In this document: positions 10,965 to 36,235 of the stretch, piece after piece
How the letters are laid out: the number at the start of each line of letters is the position of its first letter
Numbering within the stretch: position 1 is the stretch's first letter
Origin: Candidatus Taylorbacteria bacterium RIFCSPHIGHO2_01_FULL_51_15
GTDB taxonomy: Bacteria > Patescibacteriota > Minisyncoccia > Phycocordibacterales > UBA10002
DNA: 36,235 nucleotides
Direction: 5' to 3'
Assembly: GCA_001820935.1 (NCBI GenBank)
Contig: MHRI01000030.1
Location: 66,734-102,968, forward strand
Notes under the pieces: generated by a model
What the model saw: only the letters and a program-made list of their open reading frames with translations
Database searches by the model: none
What the model was told of the DNA's origin: nothing
Position numbers and translations under genes: made by a program

Positions 10965-12107
10965 ATGCACATCAGTGAACATATTTCTCTCAAAGAGCTC
11001 ACGACGCTAAAGATCGGCGGAGTGGCGAGATATCTTGCTTCTGTCAGCGAGGTCTCGGAGTTAAGAGAAGCTCTCCACTTCGCGGAAGAAAGAAAGCTTC
11101 CAGTTATTATCCTTGGCGGAGGTTCAAATGTGCTCATTGCGAACGGAGAGATTAACTCACTTGTCATCAAGATCGATATTAAAGGAATCGAGTGGAAAGA
11201 AGGAGCGCCCCCCACACTCCCCACTCTTAAGAGGGGGGAAGGAAAGGGGGGAGCTGAAGATTTTGTGAACGTCATAGCAAGCGCAGGTGAAAGCTGGGAC
11301 GGGTTGGTTGTGGAAGCGGTAAGGCGAGGACTCTGGGGCATTGAGAATTTATCGGGTATTCCGGGAACCGTGGGAGCAACTCCGATCCAAAACATCGGCG
11401 CGTATGGTGTGGAAATAAAAGACCTAATCGAGTGGGTTGAGGTGTTTGATACAAAGGTCGGGATAGTCCGGAGACTATCAAATGTAGAATGTGGCTTCGC
11501 GTATCGAGATAGTATCTTTAAGCATCCAGAAGGGAAAGGTTTCATTGTCCTTCGCGTGGCTCTTCGATTGAAGAAGGGCGGCATTCCGAATCTTGCCTAC
11601 AGAGATCTCAAAGAAATTTTCAATTCTCAATTTTCAATTCTCAATGAAAGAGAGAAAGAAGAAAGACAGAGCAGACTGACACCACAAGATGTGCGGAAGG
11701 CGGTCCTCGACATCCGGAGCAAGAAATTTCCGGATCTCGGGAAGTTCGGCACCGCCGGGTCATTTTTCAAAAACCCAATCATCTCGAAGGAGAGATTTGA
11801 CGAGCTTAAAAAGAGATTTCCCAACCTCCCCGGGTTTCCTTTGACAAGGTTCGACCTTACATCGGGAGAAAGGTCGAACCTTGTCAAAGTTCCTCTCGCT
11901 TGGATTCTCGATAACGTCTGTAATTTGCGAGGCTATGAAAGAGGGAACGTGAAGCTGTTCGAGAAACAGCCGATCGTACTCGTGCAAAATGGTCTCGCTT
12001 CCTCTGAAGAAATCGAAAGTTTCGCAAAGGAAATCGCAACACGTGTGAAAGAAAAGACCGGCATTGATATCGAGTGGGAGGTACAGAAGGTCAAAAGTAT
12101 GAATTAA
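10965..12107 (+). CDS. murB: UDP-N-acetylenolpyruvoylglucosamine reductase
   Basis: TTLKIGGVARYLASVSEVSEL, ILGGGSNVLIANG, GLWGIENLSGIPGTVGATPIQNIGAYGVEI, LGKFGTAGSFFKNP. Confidence 0.95.
   Translation: MHISEHISLKELTTLKIGGVARYLASVSEVSELREALHFAEERKLPVIILGGGSNVLIANGEINSLVIKIDIKGIEWKEGAPPTLPTLKRGEGKGGAEDFVNVIASAGESWDGLVVEAVRRGLWGIENLSGIPGTVGATPIQNIGAYGVEIKDLIEWVEVFDTKVGIVRRLSNVECGFAYRDSIFKHPEGKGFIVLRVALRLKKGGIPNLAYRDLKEIFNSQFSILNEREKEERQSRLTPQDVRKAVLDIRSKKFPDLGKFGTAGSFFKNPIISKERFDELKKRFPNLPGFPLTRFDLTSGERSNLVKVPLAWILDNVCNLRGYERGNVKLFEKQPIVLVQNGLASSEEIESFAKEIATRVKEKTGIDIEWEVQKVKSMN
11206..11253. repeat. GC-rich palindromic repeat inside murB
   Basis: ccccccacactccccactcttaagaggggggaaggaaaggggggag; resembles the ends of the DUF559 locus at 15725-16190. 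Confidence 0.65.
11617..11644. repeat. Perfect 14-nt tandem repeat inside murB
   Basis: (ttttcaattctcaa)x2. Confidence 0.8.
11839..11889. repeat. 20-bp perfect inverted repeat with 11-nt loop inside murB
   Basis: ctttgacaaggttcgacctt-acatcgggaga-aaggtcgaaccttgtcaaag. Confidence 0.95.
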
Positions 12108-13108: not shown

Positions 13109-15724
13109 ATGTTTGACCGACTCAAAAAGCTCTTCGGCGACGATACTGTGGCCAAGCTAAAGCCTCTCTACGGAACGGTAGACAAGATAAACAGCCTTGA
13201 GGCGGCGTTGCAAGCACTTCCCTCGGACGCTCTCAAAACGAAAACGGAAGAGCTCAAAACGCGATTGCAAAAAGGCGAGACGCTCGACGATATCCTTCCC
13301 GAGGCATTTGCACTCGTGCGCGAGTCGGCGCGCCGGACGCTTGGTGAGCGACATTTCGACGTGCAACTCTTGGGAGGTCAGATACTGCATAGGCGCGGCA
13401 TCGCGGAGATGCGCACGGGAGAAGGGAAGACTCTCGTCGCGACTCTTCCCGCCTACCTCAATGCGCTCGAAGGCAAGGGCGTGCACGTCGTCACGGTAAA
13501 CGATTATCTCTCTCGCCGCGACGCGGTATGGATGGGACAGATTTACCATTTACTTGGGCTCTCGGTGGGGGTGATCAATCACGATGCTTCTTTTTTGTAC
13601 GATCCCTCACATATCCAGAATAATGAAGTAGGAATTAAGAATTCTGCTCCAGACCATAATTCAGAATTCATACGTCGTAATTCTAAAGACATTGCCAATA
13701 AGAATCATTCAAAAGTGGATGGTAAAGATTTAGATAAACTACGAGATTTACAAGGGGGGTTCCGGGTTGTTCATGAGTTTCTAAGGCCATGCACGCGCCG
13801 CGAGGCCTATGGCGCGGACATCACCTACGGCACCAACAATGAATTCGGGTTCGACTATCTCCGCGACAACTTGGAGTACTCGAAAGATCGTCTCCGCCAG
13901 CGAGAGTTCAACTACGCGATCGTTGACGAGATAGACTCCATTCTTATCGATGAAGCGCGAACGCCCCTCATTATTTCCGCCCCTTCGGGAGATTCGGAGG
14001 ATCTCTACTCGCGCTTTGCAAAGATCGCGCGAGGACTCGAGCGGGACGTCGACTTTACCGTTGATGAAAAGCAAAAGGCTATTTCGCTCACTCCTCTAGG
14101 GATCGAGAAAGCCGAGAAGGAGCTTGGTGTTGACAATATCTACACCGAAAAAGGTATTAAATATGTGCATCATCTTGAGACCTCCGTGCGTGCCAAGGCG
14201 ATCTTCCATCTGGATAAAGAGTATGTGGTTAAGGATGGCGCGATCGTCATCGTCGATGAGTTTACCGGCCGCCTTATGCCCGGTCGGCGCTGGAGCGAGG
14301 GCCTCCATCAAGCGATCGAGGCCAAAGAAGGAGTGAAGGTGCAGAAGGAATCGCGCACTTTTGCCTCCATCACGTTTCAAAACTATTTCCGTATGTATAC
14401 AAAGCTCGCGGGGATGACAGGTACGGCGAAGACGAGTTCCGAAGAGTTTTACAAGGTGTACGGTCTCGATGTCGTTTCTATCCCTACGAACCAGCCGATC
14501 GCACGGGCCGATCGTAATGACCAGATATTCCAGACAGAGAAGGGTAAGTTTAAGGCCATCGCACGGAAAGTGGCGGAGCTTAATAAAAAAGGTCAACCCG
14601 TACTTATCGGCACCGTCTCGATCGAGAAGAATGAAGTACTCTCGGAGTATCTGCGCGTTGCCGGCGTCCCGCATGAACTCTTGAATGCTAAGAACCATGA
14701 GCGCGAGGGAGAAATCATCGCACAGGCTGGGCGGAAGGGGGCGGTAACGGTCGCCACCAACATGGCAGGTCGCGGTGTTGATATCAAATTAGGAGGTAAT
14801 CCGCCTCTCTCCGATGAAGCGCGCTTTGTGCGCGAAGTCGGAGGACTTTTTGTACTCGGTACCGAGCGCCATGAAGCGAGGCGTATTGATAACCAGCTTC
14901 GCGGCCGATCGGGTCGTCAAGGCGATCCGGGAGAAACGCAGTTTTTCGTCTCGATGGAAGATACGCTCATGCGTGTTTTCGCGCACGACACCATCAAGAA
15001 CATGATGGGGCGCTTCGGTATTCCCGAAGACGAACCAATTGAGAATCGTATCATCACGCGTTCGCTTGAAACCGCGCAGACGAAAATAGAAGGGTTCAAC
15101 TTCGATTCGCGAAAACATGTCCTTGAATACGATAACGTCCTCAATCACCAGCGAGGGGTGATCTACGAGCGCCGCCGCAAGATTCTTCTTGGTGGTCCTG
15201 AAGCGGTGGACGAATACTTTGGAGCATTATTCGAACAAGGTTCGACCTTGGATCGGGAGAAAGGTCGAACCTTGTTCGAATCTAAAAAACAGCAACTCGG
15301 CTCTGATTTCTACGGGGCCATACAGCGTCTTATCTTACAAACCATTGACCTCTTCTGGGTGGAACATCTCGAAGTCATGGACTACCTTCGCGGTTCGGTG
15401 AACTTGCGGGCCTACGGACAGCGGGATCCTCTTGTCGAATACAAGAAAGAAGGGCTCAAAATGTTCAAGGAGATGGAGGAAAATATCGTAGCGCAAGTGG
15501 TAAAAATCTTTCCGCATGTTGGGGGTCTCTCTCCCACTGTGGAACAAGTGAGACTTCAGGAAGTGCATGAGCAAGCGCAGCTCATCGGTTCGGGCGACGA
15601 GGAATCGGACGCGAAGCATCAAGGAAATGTTCATCGCACGTCCGATGAACCAAAGGTAGGTCGCAATGATCCGTGTCCGTGCGGCAGCGGGAAGAAGTAT
15701 AAGAAGTGTCATGGAGCCTCTTAG
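13109..15724 (+). CDS. secA: Preprotein translocase subunit SecA
   Basis: [80 protein letters not shown]-terminal zinc motif [15 protein letters not shown]. Confidence 0.98.
13617..13684. repeat. Imperfect 30-nt inverted repeat inside secA
   Basis: agaataatgaagtaggaattaagaattctg / 8-nt loop / cataattcagaattcatacgtcgtaattct; ~22/30 paired. Confidence 0.6.
15229..15281. repeat. 21-bp perfect inverted repeat with 11-nt loop inside secA
   Basis: attcgaacaaggttcgacctt-ggatcgggaga-aaggtcgaaccttgttcgaat. Confidence 0.95.
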
Positions 15725-16190
15725 TTCTTTCTTCCCCTCTTTAGAGGGGAAGTGCCGTGGCTTCCGAGGCGAAGGGGTGTCTTATTGTATGAAAACAAAA
15801 ATAAGTAACTTATCTTCGCTCAAGGATAATCGGCGGAAACTCCGCAATGAATCAACTCCCCAAGAAATAATGTTATGGGCTCGATTAAGGAAGGAACAGC
15901 TGGGTCACAAATTTCGACGTCAGCACTCATTTGGGAATTACATAGCGGATTTTTACTGCCCTGATAAAAAACTCATTGTTGAGATCGACGGCTCACAACA
16001 CCTCGACCAAGAAGCGTATGATACGGAGCGGACTACATTTTTTGGAAAACAAGGTTTTCGGGTGGTAAGGTTTTGGAATAGTGAAATCAATACCAACATG
16101 GAGGGTGTCATTACAAAAATTATAGGATTACTCGAATAACACCCCCTCTCAGTCTCCCCCTCTAAAGAGGGGGAGAATTAAAGCAGGGGG
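15725..16190 (+). mobile_element. Candidate DUF559 endonuclease element bounded by inverted GC-rich palindromic modules
   Basis: Left cttcccctctttagaggggaag...gaaggggtgt; right acaccccctc...tctccccctctaaagagggggaga. Confidence 0.6.
15789..16139 (+). CDS. DUF559 (Vsr-like endonuclease fold) protein
   Basis: STPQEIMLWARLRKEQLGHKFRRQHSFGNYIADFYCPDKKLIVEIDGSQHLDQEAYDTERTTFFGKQGFRVVRFWNSEI. Confidence 0.9.
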   Translation: MKTKISNLSSLKDNRRKLRNESTPQEIMLWARLRKEQLGHKFRRQHSFGNYIADFYCPDKKLIVEIDGSQHLDQEAYDTERTTFFGKQGFRVVRFWNSEINTNMEGVITKIIGLLE

Positions 16191-16197
16191 TCCTCAC

Positions 16198-19731: not shown

Positions 19732-19857
19732 AATTTCTAATTCACCTAATTATTCTAATTGACCTAAGGAATGTATAAATCAAAAGTCTTAAATTGGGAT
19801 TTGGATATTGGAACTCTTTAGAATAATTAGTGTAATTAGGTTAATCAGAACAATTTT
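19732..19857. repeat. MITE-like inverted-repeat element, no cargo
   Basis: Left gaatttctaattcacctaattattctaattgacctaagg; right ctctttagaataattagtgtaattaggttaatcagaacaatttt; same ends as the four-helix-bundle locus at 21435-21928. Confidence 0.75.
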
Positions 19858-21391: not shown

Positions 21392-21434
21392 AAGAGAAGC
21401 GGTGAATCCGAAAGCCACATCATGTCTTTCAGAT

Positions 21435-21928
21435 AAATTATTCTAATTGACCTAATTGACCTAATTAGTCTAATTGACCTAAAGAAATCACAATGTCCGA
21501 TAAAAATCCAAAATACGACCTTGAAGAACGCACCGCAAAGTTTGGAGAGGCGATTGTGTTGTTTGCGAAGAAAATACCCGTAAATCCTGTCACTTCGCGC
21601 ATCATTCCACAATTGGTTGGTTCAGGCACCTCCATTGGCAGCAATTATTGTGAGGCAGACGATGCCGAGTCGGGAAAAGATTTCGTCCACAAACTGTGCA
21701 TCTGTAAAAAGGAAGCTCGAGAAACCAAACACTGGCTTCGTATACTGTCCGTTGCTGCGCCAGAGTTAAAGGGTGAAGCAAGAATACTATGGAAAGAGGC
21801 AAATGAACTTAATCTGATTTTCAATGCTATTGTTAAGAAGATTTGAAATAAGAAAACGTCCCTATGAGACATTGGTATTTTGGATTTCTTTAGAATAATT
21901 AGGTTAATTAGAACAATTAGAATAATTT
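21435..21928 (+). mobile_element. Candidate four-helix-bundle element flanked by inverted AT-rich repeats
   Basis: Left aaattattctaattgacctaattgacctaattagtctaattgacctaaagaaat; right atttctttagaataattaggttaattagaacaattagaataattt. Confidence 0.7.
21493..21846 (+). CDS. Four helix bundle protein (S23/IVP-like)
   Basis: DLEERTAKFGEAIVLFAKKIPVNPVTSRIIPQLVGSGTSIGSNYCEADDAESGKDFVHKLCICKKEARETKHWLRIL. Confidence 0.92.
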   Translation: MSDKNPKYDLEERTAKFGEAIVLFAKKIPVNPVTSRIIPQLVGSGTSIGSNYCEADDAESGKDFVHKLCICKKEARETKHWLRILSVAAPELKGEARILWKEANELNLIFNAIVKKI

Positions 21929-21935
21929 TCTCCCT

Positions 21936-25474: not shown

Positions 25475-25530
25475 ACCCAGCCTCATTCCTCCTTCCCTTA
25501 CCTCCCCTCCTTGGATGAGGAGGGGTTGGG

Positions 25531-26010
25531 GGTGGTCGAGTCTTCGAGACGGAGGATATTCCTCCTTTCATAAAGGAGGGTGGTCGAGTCTTCGAGACGG
25601 AGGATTTATGAGGTTACGTTATAACCCACGACTGAGGAACATTGCTCGAAATTTGCGTAGAGCACACAATCTCTCCGAGGTACTCCTATGGCAGGAGCTA
25701 CGAGCTAAAAAACTCGGCGTGCAATTCTTGCGGCAGCGACCAATCGATGAGTACGTAGTGGATTTCTTCTGCACCAAACTAAATCTAGCTATAGAAATAG
25801 ATGGGGTAAGTCATGACAGTAAGGTACAGAAAGATGAAGAGCGAAAAAGGATTCTCGAATCAAAAGGGGTTCATTTCCTCAGATTCCTCGACAGTGAGGT
25901 TCGAAACAATCTTCAGGGTGTTCTTCTGGTGATAGCAGAATACATTAAATCCTCCGCCAAGCCCTTCAAAGCAAGGGCTTCGGCACCTCCTTTAAGAAAG
26001 GAGGAATAAG
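25531..26010 (+). mobile_element. Candidate DUF559 element with palindromic inverted terminal modules
   Basis: 27-bp direct repeat at left end (25531-25557 and 25579-25605); left attcctccttt...aaaggaggg...gagacggaggattt; right is its inverted counterpart aaatcctccgcc...cacctcctttaagaaaggaggaataag. Confidence 0.7.
25608..26009 (+). CDS. DUF559 (Vsr-like endonuclease fold) protein
   Basis: NLSEVLLWQELRAKKLGVQFLRQRPIDEYVVDFFCTKLNLAIEIDGVSHDSKVQKDEERKRILESKGVHFLRFLDSEV; C-terminus reads into the right terminal repeat. Confidence 0.88.
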   Translation: MRLRYNPRLRNIARNLRRAHNLSEVLLWQELRAKKLGVQFLRQRPIDEYVVDFFCTKLNLAIEIDGVSHDSKVQKDEERKRILESKGVHFLRFLDSEVRNNLQGVLLVIAEYIKSSAKPFKARASAPPLRKEE

Positions 26011-26016
26011 ACGGAG

Positions 26017-27579
26017 CTACCGGAGCAGCGAGACAAAGATTTCTCGAAGCATCTCAGGGTTTGCCGCCCCCTTTGTGGCTTTCATGCCTTGGCCGACGAG
26101 AAATTGAAGCGCCGCCATTTTGCCTCCCTTGTAGTCGAGAGCCACTTTCTCATTCGCCGCGATGATGCCCTCTGCCACCTTCCTTAAGCCCGCTTTGTCG
26201 TTTTGTTGTAGAAGTCCTAGAGTCATGGCAAGCGCGCGCGGATCTCCACCCTTTTCAAAAAGCACCGCGAGGACGTCTTTTGCTCCACGCGATGAGAGCT
26301 CCTTTTTTGTAACCATGAGAATAAGCTCGGCGATTGCTTCCGGCGTGAAGAGAAAATCGGCACGATCCTGATCGAGCTTATGCTTTTTGATGAGACCGAG
26401 GAGATCCGAGGTGAGGTAGTTCGCGGCAAGAAGGAGGGCTTCTTTTTCTACTCGCCCCTTTGCCATCGCCTCGAACAGATTGGAGAGGGAGCGGCTGCCA
26501 ACGAGGGTTTCAATATCACTCTCTTTAAGTGAAAGCTCCCGATATCGCGCCCGTTTCGCATCGGGAAGTTCAGGCATCTCTTTCCGGAGGATTTCCTCCT
26601 TGAATTCGGGAATCTCGCGTATCACAAGTTTGGGAAGGTCGGGATCGGGGAAATACCGGTAGTCCTCCGCCTCCTCCTTGCTTCGTTGGCTGAAGGTTTT
26701 TCCGGTGTTTTCGTCCCATCCGCGCGTCTCCTGCTTCACCTTCTCGCCTAGGTCGAGTAGGGAAGCGTGCCGCTCTGCCTCGTACGCGATCGCCCGTTCC
26801 ACCGCGCGGAATGAATTCAAATTTTTCACTTCCACTTTTGTCCCAAGCTCCCCCTCCTCTCCCTCGGACTTCTTGCTAAGGCTGATGTTCGCCTCGATGC
26901 GCATTTCCCCCTTTTCCATGTTCGCGTCCGAGACGCCAAGATAGCGGAGGAGTAGTTGGAGCTCGCGAGCGAAATCTCCCGCTTCTTTCGCGCTTCGAAT
27001 AACCGGCTCGGTCACAAGTTCCATAAGCGGCACTCCCGCTCGATTAAAATCAATCAGACTAAATCCTTCGCTCTTAATTCCTCCTTTAGAAAAGGAGGTG
27101 TCCGAATCTTTGAGGACGGAGGATTTTGAAATCCCTCGGCTCGCAGACTCGCCACTCCCTTTATCCGCCAGCTGGCGGAAAGGGAGAATAGAGGAATCCT
27201 TGTGCAGGGAAGTGGCGGTGTCCTCCTCGAGATGGACGCGAGTGATTTTCACACCCCGAAGCTCGCCTCCGCGAACCAGCGGGAATTCGTACTGACTCAG
27301 TTGATACCCTTTTGGAATGTCGGGGTAGAAATAATTCTTTCGGTCAAACTCGGTGAAATCAGCGAGGGTCCCTCCAAGCGCGATCCCCACTTTCAGCACG
27401 TGTCTCACCGCCTCTTTATTAATCGTGGGAAGCGTACCGGGGTGTCCCATGCAGATAGGGCAGATGTTCGCGTTTGGACGAAGCTCATCCGGATCATTCT
27501 TCGAATCGCAAAACATCTTCGTTTTTGTACGAAGCTGTGCGTGTATTTCAAGACCCACGGTAAGTATGTAGTCGTTCAT
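26017..27579 (-). CDS. gatB: Aspartyl/glutamyl-tRNA amidotransferase subunit B
   Basis: TVGLEIHAQLRTKTKMFCDS...CPICMGHPGTLPTINKEAV; FNRAGVPLMELVTEP; DYRYFPDPDLPKL. Confidence 0.96.
   Translation of the reverse strand: MNDYILTVGLEIHAQLRTKTKMFCDSKNDPDELRPNANICPICMGHPGTLPTINKEAVRHVLKVGIALGGTLADFTEFDRKNYFYPDIPKGYQLSQYEFPLVRGGELRGVKITRVHLEEDTATSLHKDSSILPFRQLADKGSGESASRGISKSSVLKDSDTSFSKGGIKSEGFSLIDFNRAGVPLMELVTEPVIRSAKEAGDFARELQLLLRYLGVSDANMEKGEMRIEANISLSKKSEGEEGELGTKVEVKNLNSFRAVERAIAYEAERHASLLDLGEKVKQETRGWDENTGKTFSQRSKEEAEDYRYFPDPDLPKLVIREIPEFKEEILRKEMPELPDAKRARYRELSLKESDIETLVGSRSLSNLFEAMAKGRVEKEALLLAANYLTSDLLGLIKKHKLDQDRADFLFTPEAIAELILMVTKKELSSRGAKDVLAVLFEKGGDPRALAMTLGLLQQNDKAGLRKVAEGIIAANEKVALDYKGGKMAALQFLVGQGMKATKGAANPEMLREIFVSLLR
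27073..27194. repeat. Composite palindromic repeat (MITE-like) inside gatB
   Basis: cttaattcctcctttagaaaaggaggtgtcc...gacggaggattttgaaatccctcg...cactccctttatccgccagctggcggaaagggagaatagagg. Confidence 0.85.
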
Positions 27580-27699: not shown

Positions 27700-27832
27700 A
27701 CACCTCCTATTCTCCCTTTCCGCCAGCTGGCGGATAAAGGGAGTGGCTCATTCTGATGATGTCGAGGGATTTCTAAAATCCTCCGTCCCTCGAGGATTCG
27801 GGACACCTCCTTTTGAAAAGGAGGAATTAAGA
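27700..27832. repeat. Second copy of the gatB repeat, opposite orientation, upstream of gatB
   Basis: Reverse complement: cttaattcctccttttcaaaaggaggtgtcccgaatcctcgagggacggaggattttagaaatccctcg...cactccctttatccgccagctggcggaaagggagaataggagg. Confidence 0.85.
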
Positions 27833-28474: not shown

Positions 28475-31400
28475 ATGAATTCCGAGCTTATTTTTTCAGG
28501 TAAAAAGTTCATCTCGTCTAAGCGAGCTGCCTTGGAAACTGGCTACGCGCCGGACTACATAGGTCAGCTCTGTCGGAGCGGAAAAATCGGGGGGAGGCTC
28601 GTAGGGCGGACGTGGTACGTCTCTGCCGATGCCATTCTCCAGCACAAATCGGAAAATCCTAATGGCTCTGGCTGGAAACAGCCCCGACGGAATCCACTCG
28701 AGAATGGGGTGTCAGGAGCGCCCGCGGCGGTTTCCTCCACGCCCTCGTCCGAGGTGATCACGGAGAGCGAATCAACCGGAGTCAAAGGCACTCCCGAATC
28801 TTCAGAGGCCGACCCTCTTGCGGTACAAAACATTCCACCCTCCGCTCCACTTCGAGCAGCGGCTGAAGTCGAGAGTGATTCCCCGCGCATCGAGAAGGTC
28901 GTCACATCGGCACTCGAGGAGGCGCATCCGGTTTCCTCGCGCGCTGTGAAGATGCCGATGCTCTCGGCTGATTTTTTTAAAAAAGTTGGCGTCGCGGCGT
29001 TCTCATTTCTTGTCGTATTCGGTTCATACACGTTTGCGAATTCAGAAGTGTTTAGTGAGGCACAGCGGCACGCGAAAGAGTACGCGCAGTTTCTGGCGAT
29101 GAGTGTTTTTGAAGAAGTGAACGAGATCGGCGAGAGGACGCTCGCGGGGGGACTAGCGGTTGTGGAGATGGGTGGGCGAGCGGGAGCGAGTGCGGGAGAG
29201 GCTTTCGCTCTACTCGTCCACGATCCCGAGCGTGCCGCGCTTTCTTTCTACCACGGGGCGAATTATTTCTTCCGCGCGTTGCCTAGGACACTCGCGGCAC
29301 TTCCTCCGTACGCAAAGAGCATGTACTTCGCCACCGGCACGGCGATCTTCGACTCTGCTCATTCGCTTGCGAACTCATTCCTCCGGTACCCGATTTCGGA
29401 AACGGTTGCACTGGTCAGCCGTTCTCTCTTTTATGTCGTCTCCACTGGACTTCAGGAGGGAGTGAGGAGTGCCTCAAGTGCGATACAGGGAGGTCTCGCT
29501 CATCTTGGGAGTAAGGGCACGTACACGGACACATTAGGACAGCCGCTTGCCGCAGGGGCTCTCGCGCTTCGCGAAAGTACGCTTAAGGGCACGTCGGCTT
29601 TCTCCGATCGGCTCCGCTCGTACCATGACCGCGCGTTCTCTTCCGTCTCGGGCGGAATCTCCGCGCTCATGGCGGGCGCATACGATCTTCTCTTACCCCT
29701 TCGCGAAAGTGCTCGTTTTGTCTACACGACCCTACACGGGGGTATCGAGCGTATTCGAACGCTCGGGAGACTGACGGCTCCGCTCGTGGAATCTAAAGAG
29801 GCGGTTCTCTCTCCCACAGCAACTCCAGCAACTTCTTCTCCCGCTCCTTCTCTCGTGCCGCAAGAGAGGATTGTGACGGAGCGAGTGACAGAGCGGGTGA
29901 TCGTGCCCGTTCCAGCGCAAACTTCGCCCTCTGCGCCCATACAAACGGTGTTCGCAAGCGGCGTGTCAGAAAGTGAAATGAACGCCAAACTCTCCGCTCT
30001 GCAAACTCGCCTCGCCGCCGATATCGCGTCCCTCCGAGGAACCACCTCGCAAACCGCGCAAGCGACCGCGAATAACACGACGTACATCAATAATGTGTAC
30101 AACGCGGTGGCGCAGACGAACAATCTCGATCGTATACAAGATGTGCTCCTCGTAAACCCAACCGCGACCAATGGCACCTTTACTTCTCCGTCAATTTCGG
30201 GGGCGACCATTACCGGCTCGACGTTCAGCGGTTCGTCGGGCACCTTCACCGGCTCTCTCACGATTTCCGGCACGGGCACTTCTACGATTACCGGAGACAC
30301 TGCCTTTGACACGGACACTCTCTATATAGACTCCCTGAACAATCGCGTCGGCATCGGCACTTCGTCTCCGACAGATACGCTTTCGATCGCGGGGCCGATC
30401 TTCCTCGCGAACAACACGCCTTCGGCTACTGGAAATCGCCTGTACGCAAACGGCGGCGACCTCTACTACGCGGGCAATCTAATCGGTGGCGCGACGACCG
30501 GCAACTGGACATCGGACGGCACGAGCGTGTGGCGAGCGACGGGTAATGTCGGAGTAGGTACCTCATCACCATACGCCAAACTATCGGTGGTTGGTGAGGC
30601 AGTCGCATCACATTTTACCGCCACCTCAACTATTGCCACTTCCACTTTCTCCGGAGGATTTTCCGTAGGCAGTTCGACGCCGAAATTTCTTGTAGATAGA
30701 TTCACCGGCAAAGTCGGCATCGGCACTTCTTCTCCGCAATACAATCTGGAGCTCTTGGGCAACCTCGGCGCCTTCTATCGCGGAGGCGACACGCAGACGC
30801 CGTTCTCGTTTGACGCATCAGGCTCTTCGCTTGATGCCTATGTCGCTCTTGAAATACGGGTGCCGGCAAGCAGTGGGGAGCAGAAGGCTATCGGTTTTGT
30901 GAGGGGCAGTGACCTCTATTCGTTCGGAGCGTTTGGCTACAATGTCGGAGGCACGGGGAAACCTGGGTTTGATTTGGGTGATGGGTCGGGAGCGCGCGAC
31001 ACTAGCATCTTCCGTGATTCTGCCAATGTTCTCCGAACCGGCGATTCACTCATTGTGGACGGCTCGCTTGGTATCGGGACCACAAGCCCATATGCAAAGT
31101 TAAGCGTCGTTGGCGAGGCAGTAGCCTCACACTTTACCGCCACCTCAACTACCGCAACCACCACCCTCGCAGGCGGTCTCATCGTCGGCTCTGGTGGTGG
31201 GACGAATGGGCTGACGGTGACGGGGAATGCCGCTTTTGATTCCACTACTCTCTTTGTGGATTCGGTGAATAACAGGGTGGGGGTGGGGACGGCGAGTCCA
31301 AGTGATAACTTACATATTACAGGAAGCGTGAATTCCGCAATCACCTTAACTTCATCAAGTTATCCTACAGACTACAAAACTCAATTAGGTAGTAGGGGGG

Positions 31401-34400
31401 GTGTCGGAGTTTTGGTTTTTGGCAATAATGCAAGTAACGAAATACGGTTTGGTCATACTGGTGCTGGTGGCTCCGGTTCTATTCTCGTAAATAATACAAC
31501 TGGGTATGATGCTAGTTCTGATGGTACAAGGGCAATGTTCTTTAGTAGCGGCGGTCTTGTGAGTATTGGTGATGAAACCTCCCCTGGCTCCAAACTCTCT
31601 GTCTCTGGCAACGCAACTATTGGTGCTTCTTACGACACCACTGCTGCTCCGACGAATGGTCTTTTGGTGGAAGGGAATGTCGGCCTCGGCACCACCTCTC
31701 CGTACGCCAAACTTTCTGTGGTTGGACCAGTGGTTGCTGAATATTTCCACGCGACGAGTACAACGGCGACGACGACTTTGGCGGGGGGACTGATCGTCGG
31801 CTCTGGTGGTGGGACGAATGGACTTACGGTGACGGGGAATTTATCAGGTTCGTCAGGTAGACTTGATATTGGTGGTTATGTTTTCTCTACTAGATCAAAT
31901 ACTTCAGTGGATGGAATTATTTATGGCACTACTGCTTATGTGGGAGAGACACCAGGTAATACCGGTATCGGTTCTTCTGGAGCAGGTACAGGTTTTTGGG
32001 ATCAAGGATCGTTAGTGGCAAGAATGGGTGGTAGCGGAGAATTTCAGTTAAATGTGGCTGGAGGTTTATATTTTGGATCAGGAGGACCTACTGCTGGAGA
32101 TGATGTTGGTCTAAAAAGAAATGCATCGGGAGTCATTGAGGTAAATAATGGAACAGCTGGTCAACTTTCTACTCTAATCGCCAACACCATCGGCATCGGC
32201 ACCACCTCACCATACGCCAAACTATCAGTCGTCGGCCCTGTGGTTGCAGAATATTTCCATGCGACGAGCACGACGGCGACGACGACATTGGCGGGAGGAT
32301 TCTCGGTAGGAAGTAGCACGCCGAGAATTTTGGCCGATAGGTTTACGGGAAATGTCGGCATTAGTTTAGCGAGCCCCCTCGCCACGCTTGATGTCGCAAG
32401 GGGTAATGGCGTCAACGGCACCGCAACTTTCCGAGGTACAACACATAGCACTTACTTTAATTATTTTGAAAATGAAGACACCTATATTCGTGGAGGTAAG
32501 GCTGGTTCTGATGTCTATATTAATGACATAGGTATTGGTGACATATATTTAGTTCCGGGCGGTGGCTCGGTTGGAATTGCTAGCACAACTCCTTGGGCGC
32601 AACTTTCTGTAAATCCAAATGGCATCTCTGGTCCATCATTTTCCATCGGGTCTTCAACCGCCACACATCTTGTGGTGACGAATGGAGGGAATGTGGGGAT
32701 TGGGACATCAGCTGTTCCTGTAGCTAATTTTGAAGTGGTTCGAACGACTGACGGTCCGGTCATCATTGCCCGTGGCAGTTCCGCTTCAACTTACAATGAT
32801 GTTCGTATCTATAACGACCAGAATACTGCCCTGCGGTCTCTCACATTTAGCTATACCGGCAGTTCATATACCGGTCCTTTCTGGACAGATGGCAATACAG
32901 GAGAAATCGGTGCTGTTGGAACACTTGGCGCATATCCACTTACATTTGCAACAAATAATACGCAAAGGATGATGATCAGTTCCGCCGGCCTTGTCGGCAT
33001 CGGCACCACCTCTCCTTACGCCAAGCTTTCCGTCGTCGGTCCAGTAGTGGCGGAATATTTCCATGCGACGAGCACGACGGCGACTTCAACATTTGCGGGA
33101 GGAGGACTCTTTGGCACCGGAGGTGGAGCATTTGGGTTTGCCACCACCACTCCAGCAACTGGCTTTGCGGTGGGAACGCATTGCGTGACAGCTGACACGC
33201 GACTAAGACGAAGACGCAAGAAAAAAGGCAAAGTCGGAGGAAAAAGGTTCGACCTTTCTTCCGACCCAAGGTCGAACCTTGGGGAATCCGACTTTATCTA
33301 CGATGAGGTAATGATCAAAGATGTAGAGACGGGAGATGAAGTGGCCTCAATGGATCCATTCAGTGGAAAAATAGTTTGGTCGAGGGTCAATGGGCTTATG
33401 CACATGGGAATCAAGGAAATCTGGACGATCGGCACACGTTCTGGCCGCACTATTCGCACTACCGACAATCACCCTTACTTCGTCCGTCAAAGAAGAACTC
33501 AACCAACTCAAAAACTCTACCGCTTTGAAGTTGATCAATCCGTGAAGATAGAGGAATTCACCAAAGATACTATAGTCGCAGTAGCTAACGAAGATCATTC
33601 GGTAGCGGTATCAGTTCCAAGAAAAGTAAAACAAGCGCTTCGAGCTACACTTCGTCAAAATCAACCGCAGAGATTTAACGCGGCAGTCTTTGCGGCCGCT
33701 ATTGTCGAAGCGCTCGCTACTCTTAATCAACAGGCGCATGAGTTAGTCATTGATATCGAATACAAAGGATACGAGACGACAATTGCCAATGTGATTTCAA
33801 ATGCTTTCCCGGGCATCATGATTTACTTTAAGGGTATTGGCAAGCACTCTCCCGCTCACTATGCGGCGAACTTTGCTCATCGTAAAGAAAGGAAGATAGA
33901 CAAAACACTTTCTCAAACTGATATTTCTATACAAACAGAAAACGCCCTTAGATGGTCTTTCTCCTCGCACTCCCCGAAAGGAGGTGAAGATCCGGATGCA
34001 CCACAGGCGTCTCTGATAAGGAAAAGTATAGCCGACCCAGCTTCTATTGTCAAGGAAGGTCTATGGAAGAAGGTCAAAGAGGTGCGGGTTGGGCAGGAAA
34101 TTGCAGTAGTATATGGCGAGGATGAAAATGCCCGGGTTGCTTGGGAGCCTATTGTTTCTATGAAGATAGAGCCGGAGGAATCAGTCTACGACCTCGAGAT
34201 AGAAGGCACGCACAACTTCATCGCCAATGGAATAGTTGCCCACAACACTTACATCACCGGTGGTCTCGGTGTGGGCGCGGTCAATAATACTTCGGGGACG
34301 CTGACTGTTTCGGGTGCTTCCACACTCGCTGGCCAGCTCAATCTCTCCGGCACTGCCGCCAACATCGCTCTTGGTTCCAATTATCTTTCGGGAGATGGAG

Positions 34401-36235
34401 GAGATGAAGGAGTGTTTGTGGATTCGAGTGGTAATGTGGGGATTGGGACGGCGAGTCCATTCTCTAAATTTCATACGAATTTAACCACAAGTCAGGTTGC
34501 TATCTTTGGAGGACAATCTTTAGGAACGACCAATACTAATTATGCAGGTATAGCTCTTGGATATGCTGAATCTGGACCATTTTATGCAAAAAGTATGATT
34601 GTTCAAGAGCAGTTGGGAGATGGTGCAGCGAGAGGAAAGATTCACATATTGAATGACGGTGCCGCCGATGGCGGTAGTGCCAATCTTTCAGACGCAAGAT
34701 TGACTATTAATTATGACGGCAACGTCGGCATCGGCACCACCTCTCCGTACGCTAAGCTTTCTGTCGTCGGACCAGTAGTCGCAGAATATTTCCATGCGAC
34801 AAGTACTACGGCAACTTCTACATTTAGTGGAGGATTCTTTGTGGGAACAACCACAACACCGAATCTTTTGGTGGATAAATTTACAGGTAATGTGGGAATC
34901 GGGACGGCGAGTCCGGCATCACCTCTTGACATCTATTATGGCGGAAGCAAAATTGCGGACTTCACCAATTCTACTCGCTCATCCATGAGAGTGCTTGGTA
35001 AAACGACGGGTAGTGCTGCCGTCATGACTTTTTATGATGGTCCTGACTCTGCAAATGCCGGATACGCGTCATTTGGTATTGATAATACTTCAAATGCCTT
35101 CGGTATAGCGGGAACAGTTCTTGCTTCCAGTAAAAATGGTTCAGGTACGCAGCAACCTCTGACTATTGGAGGATATGATGGATCCTTCACAAGCTGGATG
35201 ACATTTCTTACGGGAGGTAGTGTGGGCGTGAATACCACAGGACCAGACAGAAGATTTGACATTCTTGACGCTTCAAACCCACAACTTCGTCTCACTTACA
35301 CTGATGGTTCTGTGTATACAGATTTCCAGACCAACTCTGCTGGTAACTTAAATATTACTCCAAGTGGAGGATTCGTTGGCATTGGCACCACCTCCCCCTA
35401 CGCCAAGCTTTCTGTTGTAGGACCAGTGGTAGCAGAATATTTCCATGCGACGAGTACGACGGCGACTTCAACGATTGCCGGCTACCTTTCCACCACCGCA
35501 TTTGCCAACACAGCTATGACCGCGGGTTCCATCCCATTCTTCGGAGCAGGAGGATTCATGCAACAATCAAACGCCAATCTATATTATGACTCTACTAACA
35601 ATCGGCTGGGTCTTGGCACAACATCCCCTTGGGCACAACTTTCCGTCAATCCAAACGGCATCTCGGGTCCATCATTTGCCATCGGGTCTTCAACCGCCAC
35701 ACACCTTGTAGTGACGAATGGAGGGAATGTGGGGATTGGGACGGCAGTACCTGCAAGGAAATTAAGTGTGAAAGGGCAGGGTAATACCGCTTGGCTTGGA
35801 GTTGAAAGAAATACAGATACCACTTTACAATTTCAAATTGTGAATGCGGAAGGCACTGGATTTACGGCTAGCACAGGATTAACATCGCCAACATGGACAA
35901 ATGTAATTGATAATAACAATTCTAATCTTATGTTATCGTCATTTAGTTCTGGCGGAACAGGAGGAAAGATAATCTTAGATTCAGAGTTTGTTGGCATTGG
36001 TACCACATCCCCATACGCAAAGTTAAGCGTGGTCGGAGAAGCTGTAGCCAGAAACTTTACAGCCACTTCAACTACCGCCACATCTACATTTGCTGGAGGA
36101 TTGAATGTGGGATCAGGCGCCTTCCTCTACGACTTCTCATCGGGCATCACTAGTATCAATGCTCTGGAGACAGGTTCACTGAACTTTGACACCGATGCCG
36201 GTATTGTCAGTTGGGTGGATTTGCCGATTTCCTCA
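28475..36235 (+). CDS. Giant surface/fibre protein: HTH-like N-terminus, TM helix, coiled coil, VGIGT-type repeats, embedded intein; 3' end outside window
   Basis: Continuous frame from ATG 28475: MNSELIFSGKKFISSKRAALETGYAPDYIGQLCRSGKIGGRLVGRTWYVSADAI...VGVAAFSFLVVFGSYTFA...NRVGIGTSSPTDTLSIAG...; missed by the ORF track, presumably because it lacks a stop in the window. Confidence 0.9.
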   Translation, partial: MNSELIFSGKKFISSKRAALETGYAPDYIGQLCRSGKIGGRLVGRTWYVSADAILQHKSENPNGSGWKQPRRNPLENGVSGAPAAVSSTPSSEVITESESTGVKGTPESSEADPLAVQNIPPSAPLRAAAEVESDSPRIEKVVTSALEEAHPVSSRAVKMPMLSADFFKKVGVAAFSFLVVFGSYTFANSEVFSEAQRHAKEYAQFLAMSVFEEVNEIGERTLAGGLAVVEMGGRAGASAGEAFALLVHDPERAALSFYHGANYFFRALPRTLAALPPYAKSMYFATGTAIFDSAHSLANSFLRYPISETVALVSRSLFYVVSTGLQEGVRSASSAIQGGLAHLGSKGTYTDTLGQPLAAGALALRESTLKGTSAFSDRLRSYHDRAFSSVSGGISALMAGAYDLLLPLRESARFVYTTLHGGIERIRTLGRLTAPLVESKEAVLSPTATPATSSPAPSLVPQERIVTERVTERVIVPVPAQTSPSAPIQTVFASGVSESEMNAKLSALQTRLAADIASLRGTTSQTAQATANNTTYINNVYNAVAQTNNLDRIQDVLLVNPTATNGTFTSPSISGATITGSTFSGSSGTFTGSLTISGTGTSTITGDTAFDTDTLYIDSLNNRVGIGTSSPTDTLSIAGPIFLANNTPSATGNRLYANGGDLYYAGNLIGGATTGNWTSDGTSVWRATGNVGVGTSSPYAKLSVVGEAVASHFTATSTIATSTFSGGFSVGSSTPKFLVDRFTGKVGIGTSSPQYNLELLGNLGAFYRGGDTQTPFSFDASGSSLDAYVALEIRVPASSGEQKAIGFVRGSDLYSFGAFGYNVGGTGKPGFDLGDGSGARDTSIFRDSANVLRTGDSLIVDGSLGIGTTSPYAKLSVVGEAVASHFTATSTTATTTLAGGLIVGSGGGTNGLTVTGNAAFDSTTLFVDSVNNRVGVGTASPSDNLHITGSVNSAITLTSSSYPTDYKTQLGSRGGVGVLVFGNNASNEIRFGHTGAGGSGSILVNNTTGYDASSDGTRAMFFSSGGLVSIGDETSPGSKLSVSGNATIGASYDTTAAPTNGLLVEGNVGLGTTSPYAKLSVVGPVVAEYFHATSTTATTTLAGGLIVGSGGGTNGLTVTGNLSGSSGRLDIGGYVFSTRSNTSVDGIIYGTTAYVGETPGNTGIGSSGAGTGFWDQGSLVARMGGSGEFQLNVAGGLYFGSGGPTAGDDVGLKRNASGVIEVNNGTAGQLSTLIANTIGIGTTSPYAKLSVVGPVVAEYFHATSTTATTTLAGGFSVGSSTPRILADRFTGNVGISLASPLATLDVARGNGVNGTATFRGTTHSTYFNYFENEDTYIRGGKAGSDVYINDIGIGDIYLVPGGGSVGIASTTPWAQLSVNPNGISGPSFSIGSSTATHLVVTNGGNVGIGTSAVPVANFEVVRTTDGPVIIARGSSASTYNDVRIYNDQNTALRSLTFSYTGSSYTGPFWTDGNTGEIGAVGTLGAYPLTFATNNTQRMMISSAGLVGIGTTSPYAKLSVVGPVVAEYFHATSTTATSTFAGGGLFGTGGGAFGFATTTPATGFAVGTHCVTADTRLRRRRKKKGKVGGKRFDLSSDPRSNLGESDFIYDEVMIKDVETGDEVASMDPFSGKIVWSRVNGLMHMGIKEIWTIGTRSGRTIRTTDNHPYFVRQRRTQPTQKLYRFEVDQSVKIEEFTKDTIVAVANEDHSVAVSVPRKVKQALRATLRQNQPQRFNAAVFAAAIVEALATLNQQAHELVIDIEYKGYETTIANVISNAFPGIMIYFKGIGKHSPAHYAANFAHRKERKIDKTLSQTDISIQTENALRWSFSSHSPKGGEDPDAPQASLIRKSIADPASIVKEGLWKKVKEVRVGQEIAVVYGEDENARVAWEPIVSMKIEPEESVYDLEIEGTHNFIANGIVAHNTYITGGLGVGAVNNTSGTLTVSGASTLAGQLNLSGTAANIALGSNYLSGDGGDEGVFVDSSGNVGIGTASPFSKFHTNLTTSQVAIFGGQSLGTTNTNYAGIALGYAESGPFYAKSMIVQEQLGDGAARGKIHILNDGAADGGSANLSDARLTINYDGNVGIGTTSPYAKLSVVGPVVAEYFHATSTTATSTFSGGFFVGTTTTPNLLVDKFTGNVGIGTASPASPLDIYYGGSKIADFTNSTRSSMRVLGKTTGSAAVMTFYDGPDSANAGYASFGIDNTSNAFGIAGTVLASSKNGSGTQQPLTIGGYDGSFTSWMTFLTGGSVGVNTTGPDRRFDILDASNPQLRLTYTDGSVYTDFQTNSAGNLNITPSGGFVGIGTTSPYAKLSVVGPVVAEYFHATSTTATSTIAGYLSTTAFANTAMTAGSIPFFGAGGFMQQSNANLYYDSTNNRLGLGTTSPWAQLSVNPNGISGPSFAIGSSTATHLVVTNGGNVGIGTAVPARKLSVKGQGNTAWLGVERNTDTTLQFQIVNAEGTGFTASTGLTSPTWTNVIDNNNSNLMLSSFSSGGTGGKIILDSEFVGIGTTSPYAKLSVVGEAVARNFTATSTTATSTFAGGLNVGSGAFLYDFSSGITSINALETGSLNFDTDAGIVSWVDLPISS
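33182..34246 (+). other. Intein / Hint protein-splicing domain (355 aa) inside the giant surface protein
   Basis: N-terminal Cys (GTH|CVTADTRL), block B GRTIRTTDNHPYFV (TxxH), C-terminal VYDLEIEGTHNFIANGIVAHN|T with penultimate His, terminal Asn and +1 Thr. Confidence 0.9.
33230..33294. repeat. Palindromic element inside the intein, same family as in murB and secA
   Basis: aaagtcgga..aaggttcgacctt-tcttccgaccc-aaggtcgaacctt..tccgacttt. Confidence 0.9.

Follow-up and report, generated by a model that had tools for sequence, protein, structure and literature searches.

The window, by which we mean the whole stretch of 36,235 nucleotides that was analysed, carries two DUF559 genes between inverted hairpin units, together with gene-less copies of such units in and beside gatB:

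15725-15788, plus strand: left-hand unit at the second DUF559 gene, with hairpin CCCCTCTTTAGAGGGG (15734-15749), second stem and G-box
15789-16139, plus strand: second DUF559 gene, 116 aa (PF04480, E 7.5e-37), between secA and an HD-domain-like gene
16143-16193, minus strand: right-hand unit at the second DUF559 gene, with C-box ACACCCCCTCTC and hairpin CCCCTCTAAAGAGGGG (16157-16172)
25484-25557 (start approximate), plus strand: outer left unit, CCTCC type as judged from its sequence, broken up by a unit of a different type with hairpin CCCCTCCTTGGATGAGGAGGGG at 25504-25525
25558-25607, plus strand: inner left unit, with hairpin CCTCCTTT-cat-AAAGGAGG (25561-25579), short second stem and G-box GGAGGATTT
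25608-26009, plus strand: DUF559 nuclease gene, 133 aa (PF04480, E 1.1e-29; 3hrl, E 2.8e-13)
25947-26010, minus strand: right unit, with C-box AAATCCTCC, long second stem GCC...GGC, hairpin at 25986-26004 and end AATAAG
27074-27190, no strand assigned: gene-less two-unit copy in gatB (CCTCC unit and CTCCC unit), an in-frame insertion
27704-27832, no strand assigned: second gene-less two-unit copy, upstream of gatB and in inverse orientation to the copy at 27074-27190

Going inwards from the outer edge of the element, a unit has a short CTTATT end, followed by a strong hairpin (CCTCCTTT-loop-AAAGGAGG), by TG and by a second stem, whose length varies greatly; the G-box GGAGGATTT comes last. Folding with DNA parameters predicts two hairpins and an unpaired G-box, and in 998 of 1000 shuffles that swapped the partners, the second-stem arms of 18 units of the window genome paired less well than with their true partners. 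The units fall into CCTCC, CTCCC, CCCCC, CCCCTCC and CCCCTCT types, the two arms of the hairpin varying in concert. At the DUF559 gene at 25608-26009 the inner left unit reads attcctcctttcataaaggagg...ggaggattt and abuts the ATG of the open reading frame: because the unit runs straight into the start codon, the GGAGG of its G-box fits as the ribosome-binding site of the gene. The right unit, in inverse orientation, reads aaatcctccgcc...ggcacctcctttaagaaaggaggaataag and encodes the last codons and the stop, giving the protein the tail ...ASAPPLRKEE*, in agreement with the earlier note, which had placed the end of the reading frame within the right repeat. Judging from their sequences, the C-terminal tails of sister proteins look unit-derived as well: GAPPLGKEE in G009, SAPPL in G003 and TSAPPFTKEE in G001 (G000 denotes the genome of the window and G001-G012 its congeners).

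The hairpin parts of the left and right units match at 21 of 22 positions, and the inverted-repeat score of the two flanks is 21, compared to a mean of 9.2 and a maximum of 15 for shuffled sequence. Positions of the same geometry elsewhere in the window averaged 9.6, with a few higher scores of up to 35 that probably stem from the two other copies beside gatB. Elsewhere in the genome, the sequence closest to the left unit matches it at 96% over a length of 50 bases. Thus, the reading frame does lie between inverted copies of a module that is also present in the gatB repeat, as had been claimed, although both the ends and the module prove to be more complex than described. The ends are inverted, but the left one is not single: 25530-25557 is repeated with 100% identity at 25578-25605, on which basis we read the left end as two units in tandem, of which the outer is interrupted. 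As for the module, the window gene exhibits a CCTCC-type unit at both ends and the gatB repeat shares this type, but the latter contains a CTCCC-type unit in addition, the two standing head to head.

Such head-to-head pairs, with hairpins outside and G-box and C-box inside, are the general layout of the gene-less copies, which were counted by pattern searches and by reading stretches of the genome. Hairpins of the CCTCC type with an attached ATT occur 13 times in the window genome (reversed-pattern control: 0), and the stretches read contained 8 distinct complete CTCCC plus CCTCC gene-less pairs of 94-140 bases. The DUF559 elements of G009 (L032) and G003 (L040) combine a CTCCC-type left end with a CCTCC-type right end, which are the same two ends as those fused in the gene-less pairs, the gatB repeat included; their right ends are alike to the gatB copy at 45-47 of 54-56 positions, whilst the left ends agree more weakly (29 of 39 aligned positions). 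Gene-less copies thus share both ends with a gene-bearing element (G003/G009 versus the 8 gene-less copies), as MITEs do. The window gene had been proposed as the parent of such a MITE family: gene-less derivatives with like ends were indeed found, but the closest parent of the gatB repeat lies elsewhere, the G003/G009 type being nearer. Several gene-less copies of the window genome (L300-L309; G000 contigs C3, C12, C17, C21 and C32) exhibit an extra outer inverted repeat, GTAACTCTCCACACC, which is not clearly shared by DUF559 elements, is absent from those of G003 and G009, and could be the signal of another transposase or enzyme. The idea that GTAACTCTCCACACC is a pre-existing target was unsupported, units being present inside every clear copy that was read, and we have kept it as a feature of a sub-family. 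The L300-L309 copies also hold nested units of another type, CCGCCATCCCCTCCTGCCCGAGGAGGGG...GGGAGCGGCGG.

The second DUF559 protein of the window is 36% identical to the first, and unlike those of the first gene its ends are of the CCCCTCT type. Hairpins of this type occur 12 times in the genome, 2 of them at the second DUF559 gene, with no occurrence of the reversed pattern: the two paralogues stand for different unit types, and the genome contains gene-less copies of both. The window holds other repeats besides. A/T-rich repeats, TCTAATTGACCTAATTAG, lie in direct and inverted orientation around several genes (19737-19857, 21425-21486 and 21871-21929), and six or seven imperfect repeats of 139 and 127 nt families fill 30346-36117, probably encoding a repetitive surface or fibre-like protein.

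Both window proteins clearly belong to PF04480 (103 and 126 bits against a cut-off of 20.6, spanning model positions 3-108 of 109). The family-invariant residues E, Q, D, E-x-D-G-x-x-H and D-x-x-R are kept in the aligned protein of 25608-26009, and D, E-x-D-G-x-x-H and D-x-x-R are invariant across a 17-sequence alignment that includes both window proteins. Amongst solved structures, the family profile best matched 3hrl, an endonuclease-like protein (E 1.9e-36), followed, as a distant relative, by the mobile intron protein 3r3p (E 4.7e-5), which we take to be the EDxHD homing endonuclease I-Bth0305I; homing-endonuclease profiles in turn gave weak matches to DUF559. That endonuclease family has been described in PMC3943268. 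Sister DUF559 genes are under purifying selection, with pN of about 0.19-0.28 against a saturated pS of 0.74-0.91. The DUF559 protein VsrA of Caulobacter is required for an SOS response in a methyltransferase mutant, which links a member of the family to DNA damage in vivo, and has been proposed as a Vsr-type mismatch repair enzyme (PMC12907096). A role in a defence system was set aside, PADLOC giving weak partial matches only, and a literature search that mostly covered papers free of subscription found no link between DUF559 and repeats.

PF04480 was present in 15 of the 41 genomes of the genus and order and in 46 of 193 genomes of the phylum. A hairpin detector that was blind to the gene scored C/T-rich hairpins on both sides at 15 of 16 DUF559 loci of the genus and order and at 22 of 25 of the phylum (37 of 41 in Patescibacteria), and also, amongst named GTDB genomes from numerous phyla, at 57 of 77 loci. 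These GTDB loci do not sample the family at random, having been taken as the 80 matches that scored best against four Patescibacteria proteins. The controls gave 3 of 606 random positions and none of 17 RAYT genes; in the GTDB set, the inverted repeat between the two flanks exceeded the 99th percentile of controls at 55 of 78 loci. Most DUF559 loci display a G-box or C-box facing the reading frame, a layout shared by the gene-less copies and by the one at hrpB-mrcB in E. coli, and a frequent form of the unit is CCCTCTCCC-loop-GGGAGAGGG-TTRGGGTGAGGG. DUF559 genes free of flanking units occur in Legionella and in some Pseudomonas. The possibility raised in the earlier note against its own reading, that DUF559 genes elsewhere might lack such flanks, thus applies to exceptions: the physical association between DUF559 and the units is strong and general.

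Copy number follows the nuclease less strictly. In the phylum survey, at least 8 CYCCYTT-type hairpins were found in 10 of 46 genomes with PF04480 versus 4 of 147 others (Fisher p 1e-4), and unit-rich genomes with no detected DUF559 gene exist in the phylum (G061, G089, G123 and G155) and in the genus (G005), those of the phylum counting against a strict dependence on the nuclease. The DUF559 gene of E. coli is ycjD. Over 59 E. coli genomes drawn evenly down the match list, the median number of units was 16 with ycjD and 3 in its absence, a comparison confounded by phylogeny and made up of few lineages, and some ycjD-less genomes retain 10-17 copies. Amongst 13 congeners, the type of unit at DUF559 matched the abundance of that type only in part (p 0.008, 0.03 and 0.18).

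Occupied and empty sites were compared at several places. obgE and gatB are adjacent across the genus, and the gap between them holds a DUF559 element in G000, a distinct one, with a unit type of its own, in G001 and a RAYT gene in G008, whilst in G002, G007, G009 and G012 it measures about 13-33 bases and contains no unit; because gatB is inverted in some genomes, it is the gap alone that can be compared and not the exact junction. The two-unit in-frame insertion within gatB is shared by G000, G002 and G010 and absent from 8 congeners (G001, G004-G009 and G012). GatB of G008 (L098) has a different in-frame insertion of its own, at another place (the KRRLNADGRGNKILRNSASGQRSSA region). Between hrpB and mrcB, E. 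coli K-12 carries a two-unit copy, many strains have none and an O111 strain shows a collapsed single hairpin. No clear target-site duplication was seen at gatB or hrpB-mrcB, where the flanks compared are diverged. The earlier note had made its case depend on pairs of occupied and empty sites; such pairs were found at obgE-gatB, inside gatB and at hrpB-mrcB, and as read from these sequences they indicate mobility of the kind expected of MITEs.

Other candidate sites served less well. The comparison of Sinorhizobium K101 with S. meliloti Ak57 was rejected, since Ak57 has a deletion within the DUF559 gene, and on Azospirillum plasmids no empty site was found, all 7 of 7 matches spanning the DUF559 locus. 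The ycjD locus is not a clean empty site: the two ycjD-less strains that were read, S88 and O157:H7 TW14359, have an efflux operon beside sapF instead. The region sapF-ycjD-fabI (L280, L287-L291) is present in about 3,360 of 5,426 E. coli genomes.

The statement that no recognisable transposase is involved agrees with our search, which covered the Y1 family (PF01797) alone and gave no match in the window genome; a transposase of another family may be present. RAYT genes are common in the genus; the palindromes that flank them differ from these units, and with none of 17 RAYT genes bearing the units on both sides we rejected RAYT as their owner. A further palindromic repeat, AAGGTTCGACCTT...AAGGTCGAACCTT, lies at 11844-11884, 15235-15275 and 33242-33282 (in the coding sequences of murB and secA and near 33242) and resembles RAYT-type REPs, although the window genome gave no Y1 match.

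The explanation to which we give about even credence is that a DUF559 gene and its two inverted units form one selfish, REPtron-like element, in which a Vsr/EDxHD-like PD-(D/E)XK nuclease would take the place of the HUH transposase and the gene-less pairs would be non-autonomous relatives spread in trans. The nuclease itself would move the repeats, as the earlier note had inferred, a causal role that appears likely. Where single strands are exposed, for instance on the lagging-strand template, a unit would fold into the strong hairpin, the variable second hairpin and the unpaired G-box, a predicted structure whose second stem is backed by covariation; the nuclease would recognise the folded unit and nick there, and host repair would then copy or re-ligate the freed element into a new place or a resident unit. 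PD-(D/E)XK nucleases are hydrolytic: they nick or break DNA and cannot join it, so that completion of the reaction must fall to host repair or to a further enzyme. With the left unit providing the ribosome-binding site and the right unit the last codons, an overlap seen in the sequence, gene and ends would travel together.

Nicking of folded single-stranded units followed by host repair is the most economical model, and its main rival is homing into existing pairs: the units would spread by other means, DUF559 would cut a gene-less pair, and repair from a gene-bearing copy would insert the gene between the units. The relationship to 3r3p and the weak homing-endonuclease matches fit this reading, a nuclease alone suffices to drive homing, and the gene occupies the precise point at which two units meet head to head, where it would be expected were the pair the target. 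We nevertheless consider homing unlikely, as by itself it does not account for the arrival of gene-less copies in unrelated places, the coding sequence of gatB for example, or for the tracking of unit copy number with the nuclease, and the empty obgE-gatB sites contain no unit. That the units are moved by another enzyme or process, be it a TIR transposase, a RAYT since lost or template switching at palindromes, with DUF559 as a passenger or preferred insertion partner, is in our judgement improbable: the outer repeat GTAACTCTCCACACC on several copies of the window genome, the unit-rich genomes without DUF559 and the abundance of RAYT genes in the genus would suit it, but the RAYT palindromes are unrelated and no RAYT gene has these units on both sides, the G003 and G009 elements lack GTAACTCTCCACACC, and a mere passenger would not show so high a flanking rate across phyla. 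Least credible, and very doubtful, is a host Vsr-like mismatch repair nuclease, as proposed for Caulobacter VsrA (PMC12907096), accompanied by immobile units selected alongside as terminators or DNA structures, given that presence and absence differ between sister genomes and strains, that genomes hold several paralogues each with its own unit type, that there is an in-frame gatB insertion, and that the obgE-gatB gap of G000 is filled by a different DUF559 paralogue from that of G001.

If the selfish-element reading is extended across bacteria, the units and their nucleases would make up a class of mobile DNA whose hairpin-ended elements and gene-less derivatives are spread by a stand-alone Vsr-like nuclease, aided by host repair, rather than by a transposase; this class, which we put forward tentatively and with somewhat less than even confidence, would include the common proteobacterial CCCTCACCC-CCCTCTCCC-GGGAGAGGG repeats and probably BoxC of E. 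coli. The intergenic space of many bacteria is filled by short palindromic repeats, several families of which have no known mobilising enzyme, and DUF559 is a candidate engine for the spread of such very common, unexplained repeats. Here a repeat class and a nuclease family of unknown function, both widespread, are tied by position across phyla, and a causal link would account for both; E. coli K-12, which carries ycjD and its units, is where that link can be tested. Should homing rather than transposition be at work, homing-type nucleases would even then have been found in a new habitat.

Amongst known systems, Rickettsia palindromic elements, for which we know of no DUF559 link, share the in-frame placement of a palindromic element within a housekeeping gene (gatB in the present case). 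The E. coli unit between ycjD and fabI is, we presume, BoxC-like in size and copy number, its identity with BoxC being a lead; likewise, the DUF559 gene of Sinorhizobium K101 (L272) is directly followed by what we take to be a RIME-like repeat, again as a lead, and RIME may belong to the DUF559 unit class. CGTC-type REPs have no known mobilising enzyme (PMC3733652), and for bacterial small repeats the mechanism was left open in PMC2229807: both resemble the DUF559 units in being abundant, palindromic, often paired, intergenic as well as intragenic and mobiliser-less, a likeness that does not imply identity of the families, and they differ in that the reports name no nuclease partner. With I-Bth0305I and Vsr the nuclease domain shares a relationship that is detectable by sequence (3r3p, E 4.7e-5, family profile); in contrast to EDxHD homing endonucleases, the DUF559 gene does not lie in an intron or intein but is flanked by its own dispersed repeat, and at 116-133 aa the protein leaves no room for an extra DNA-binding domain. 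REPtrons (REP/REPIN-RAYT) differ in their enzyme, a Y1/HUH transposase where the DUF559 element has a PD-(D/E)XK nuclease, and in their repeats, the DUF559 unit possessing a C-box/variable stem/hairpin architecture that is not a RAYT-attached REP type, whilst RAYT genes with distinct REPs of their own coexist in the genus. The likeness lies in the organisation: palindromic repeats in inverted orientation enclose a single gene and also occur elsewhere as many pairs without it, repeat sequences vary between genomes and paralogues, and copies can reside within coding genes.
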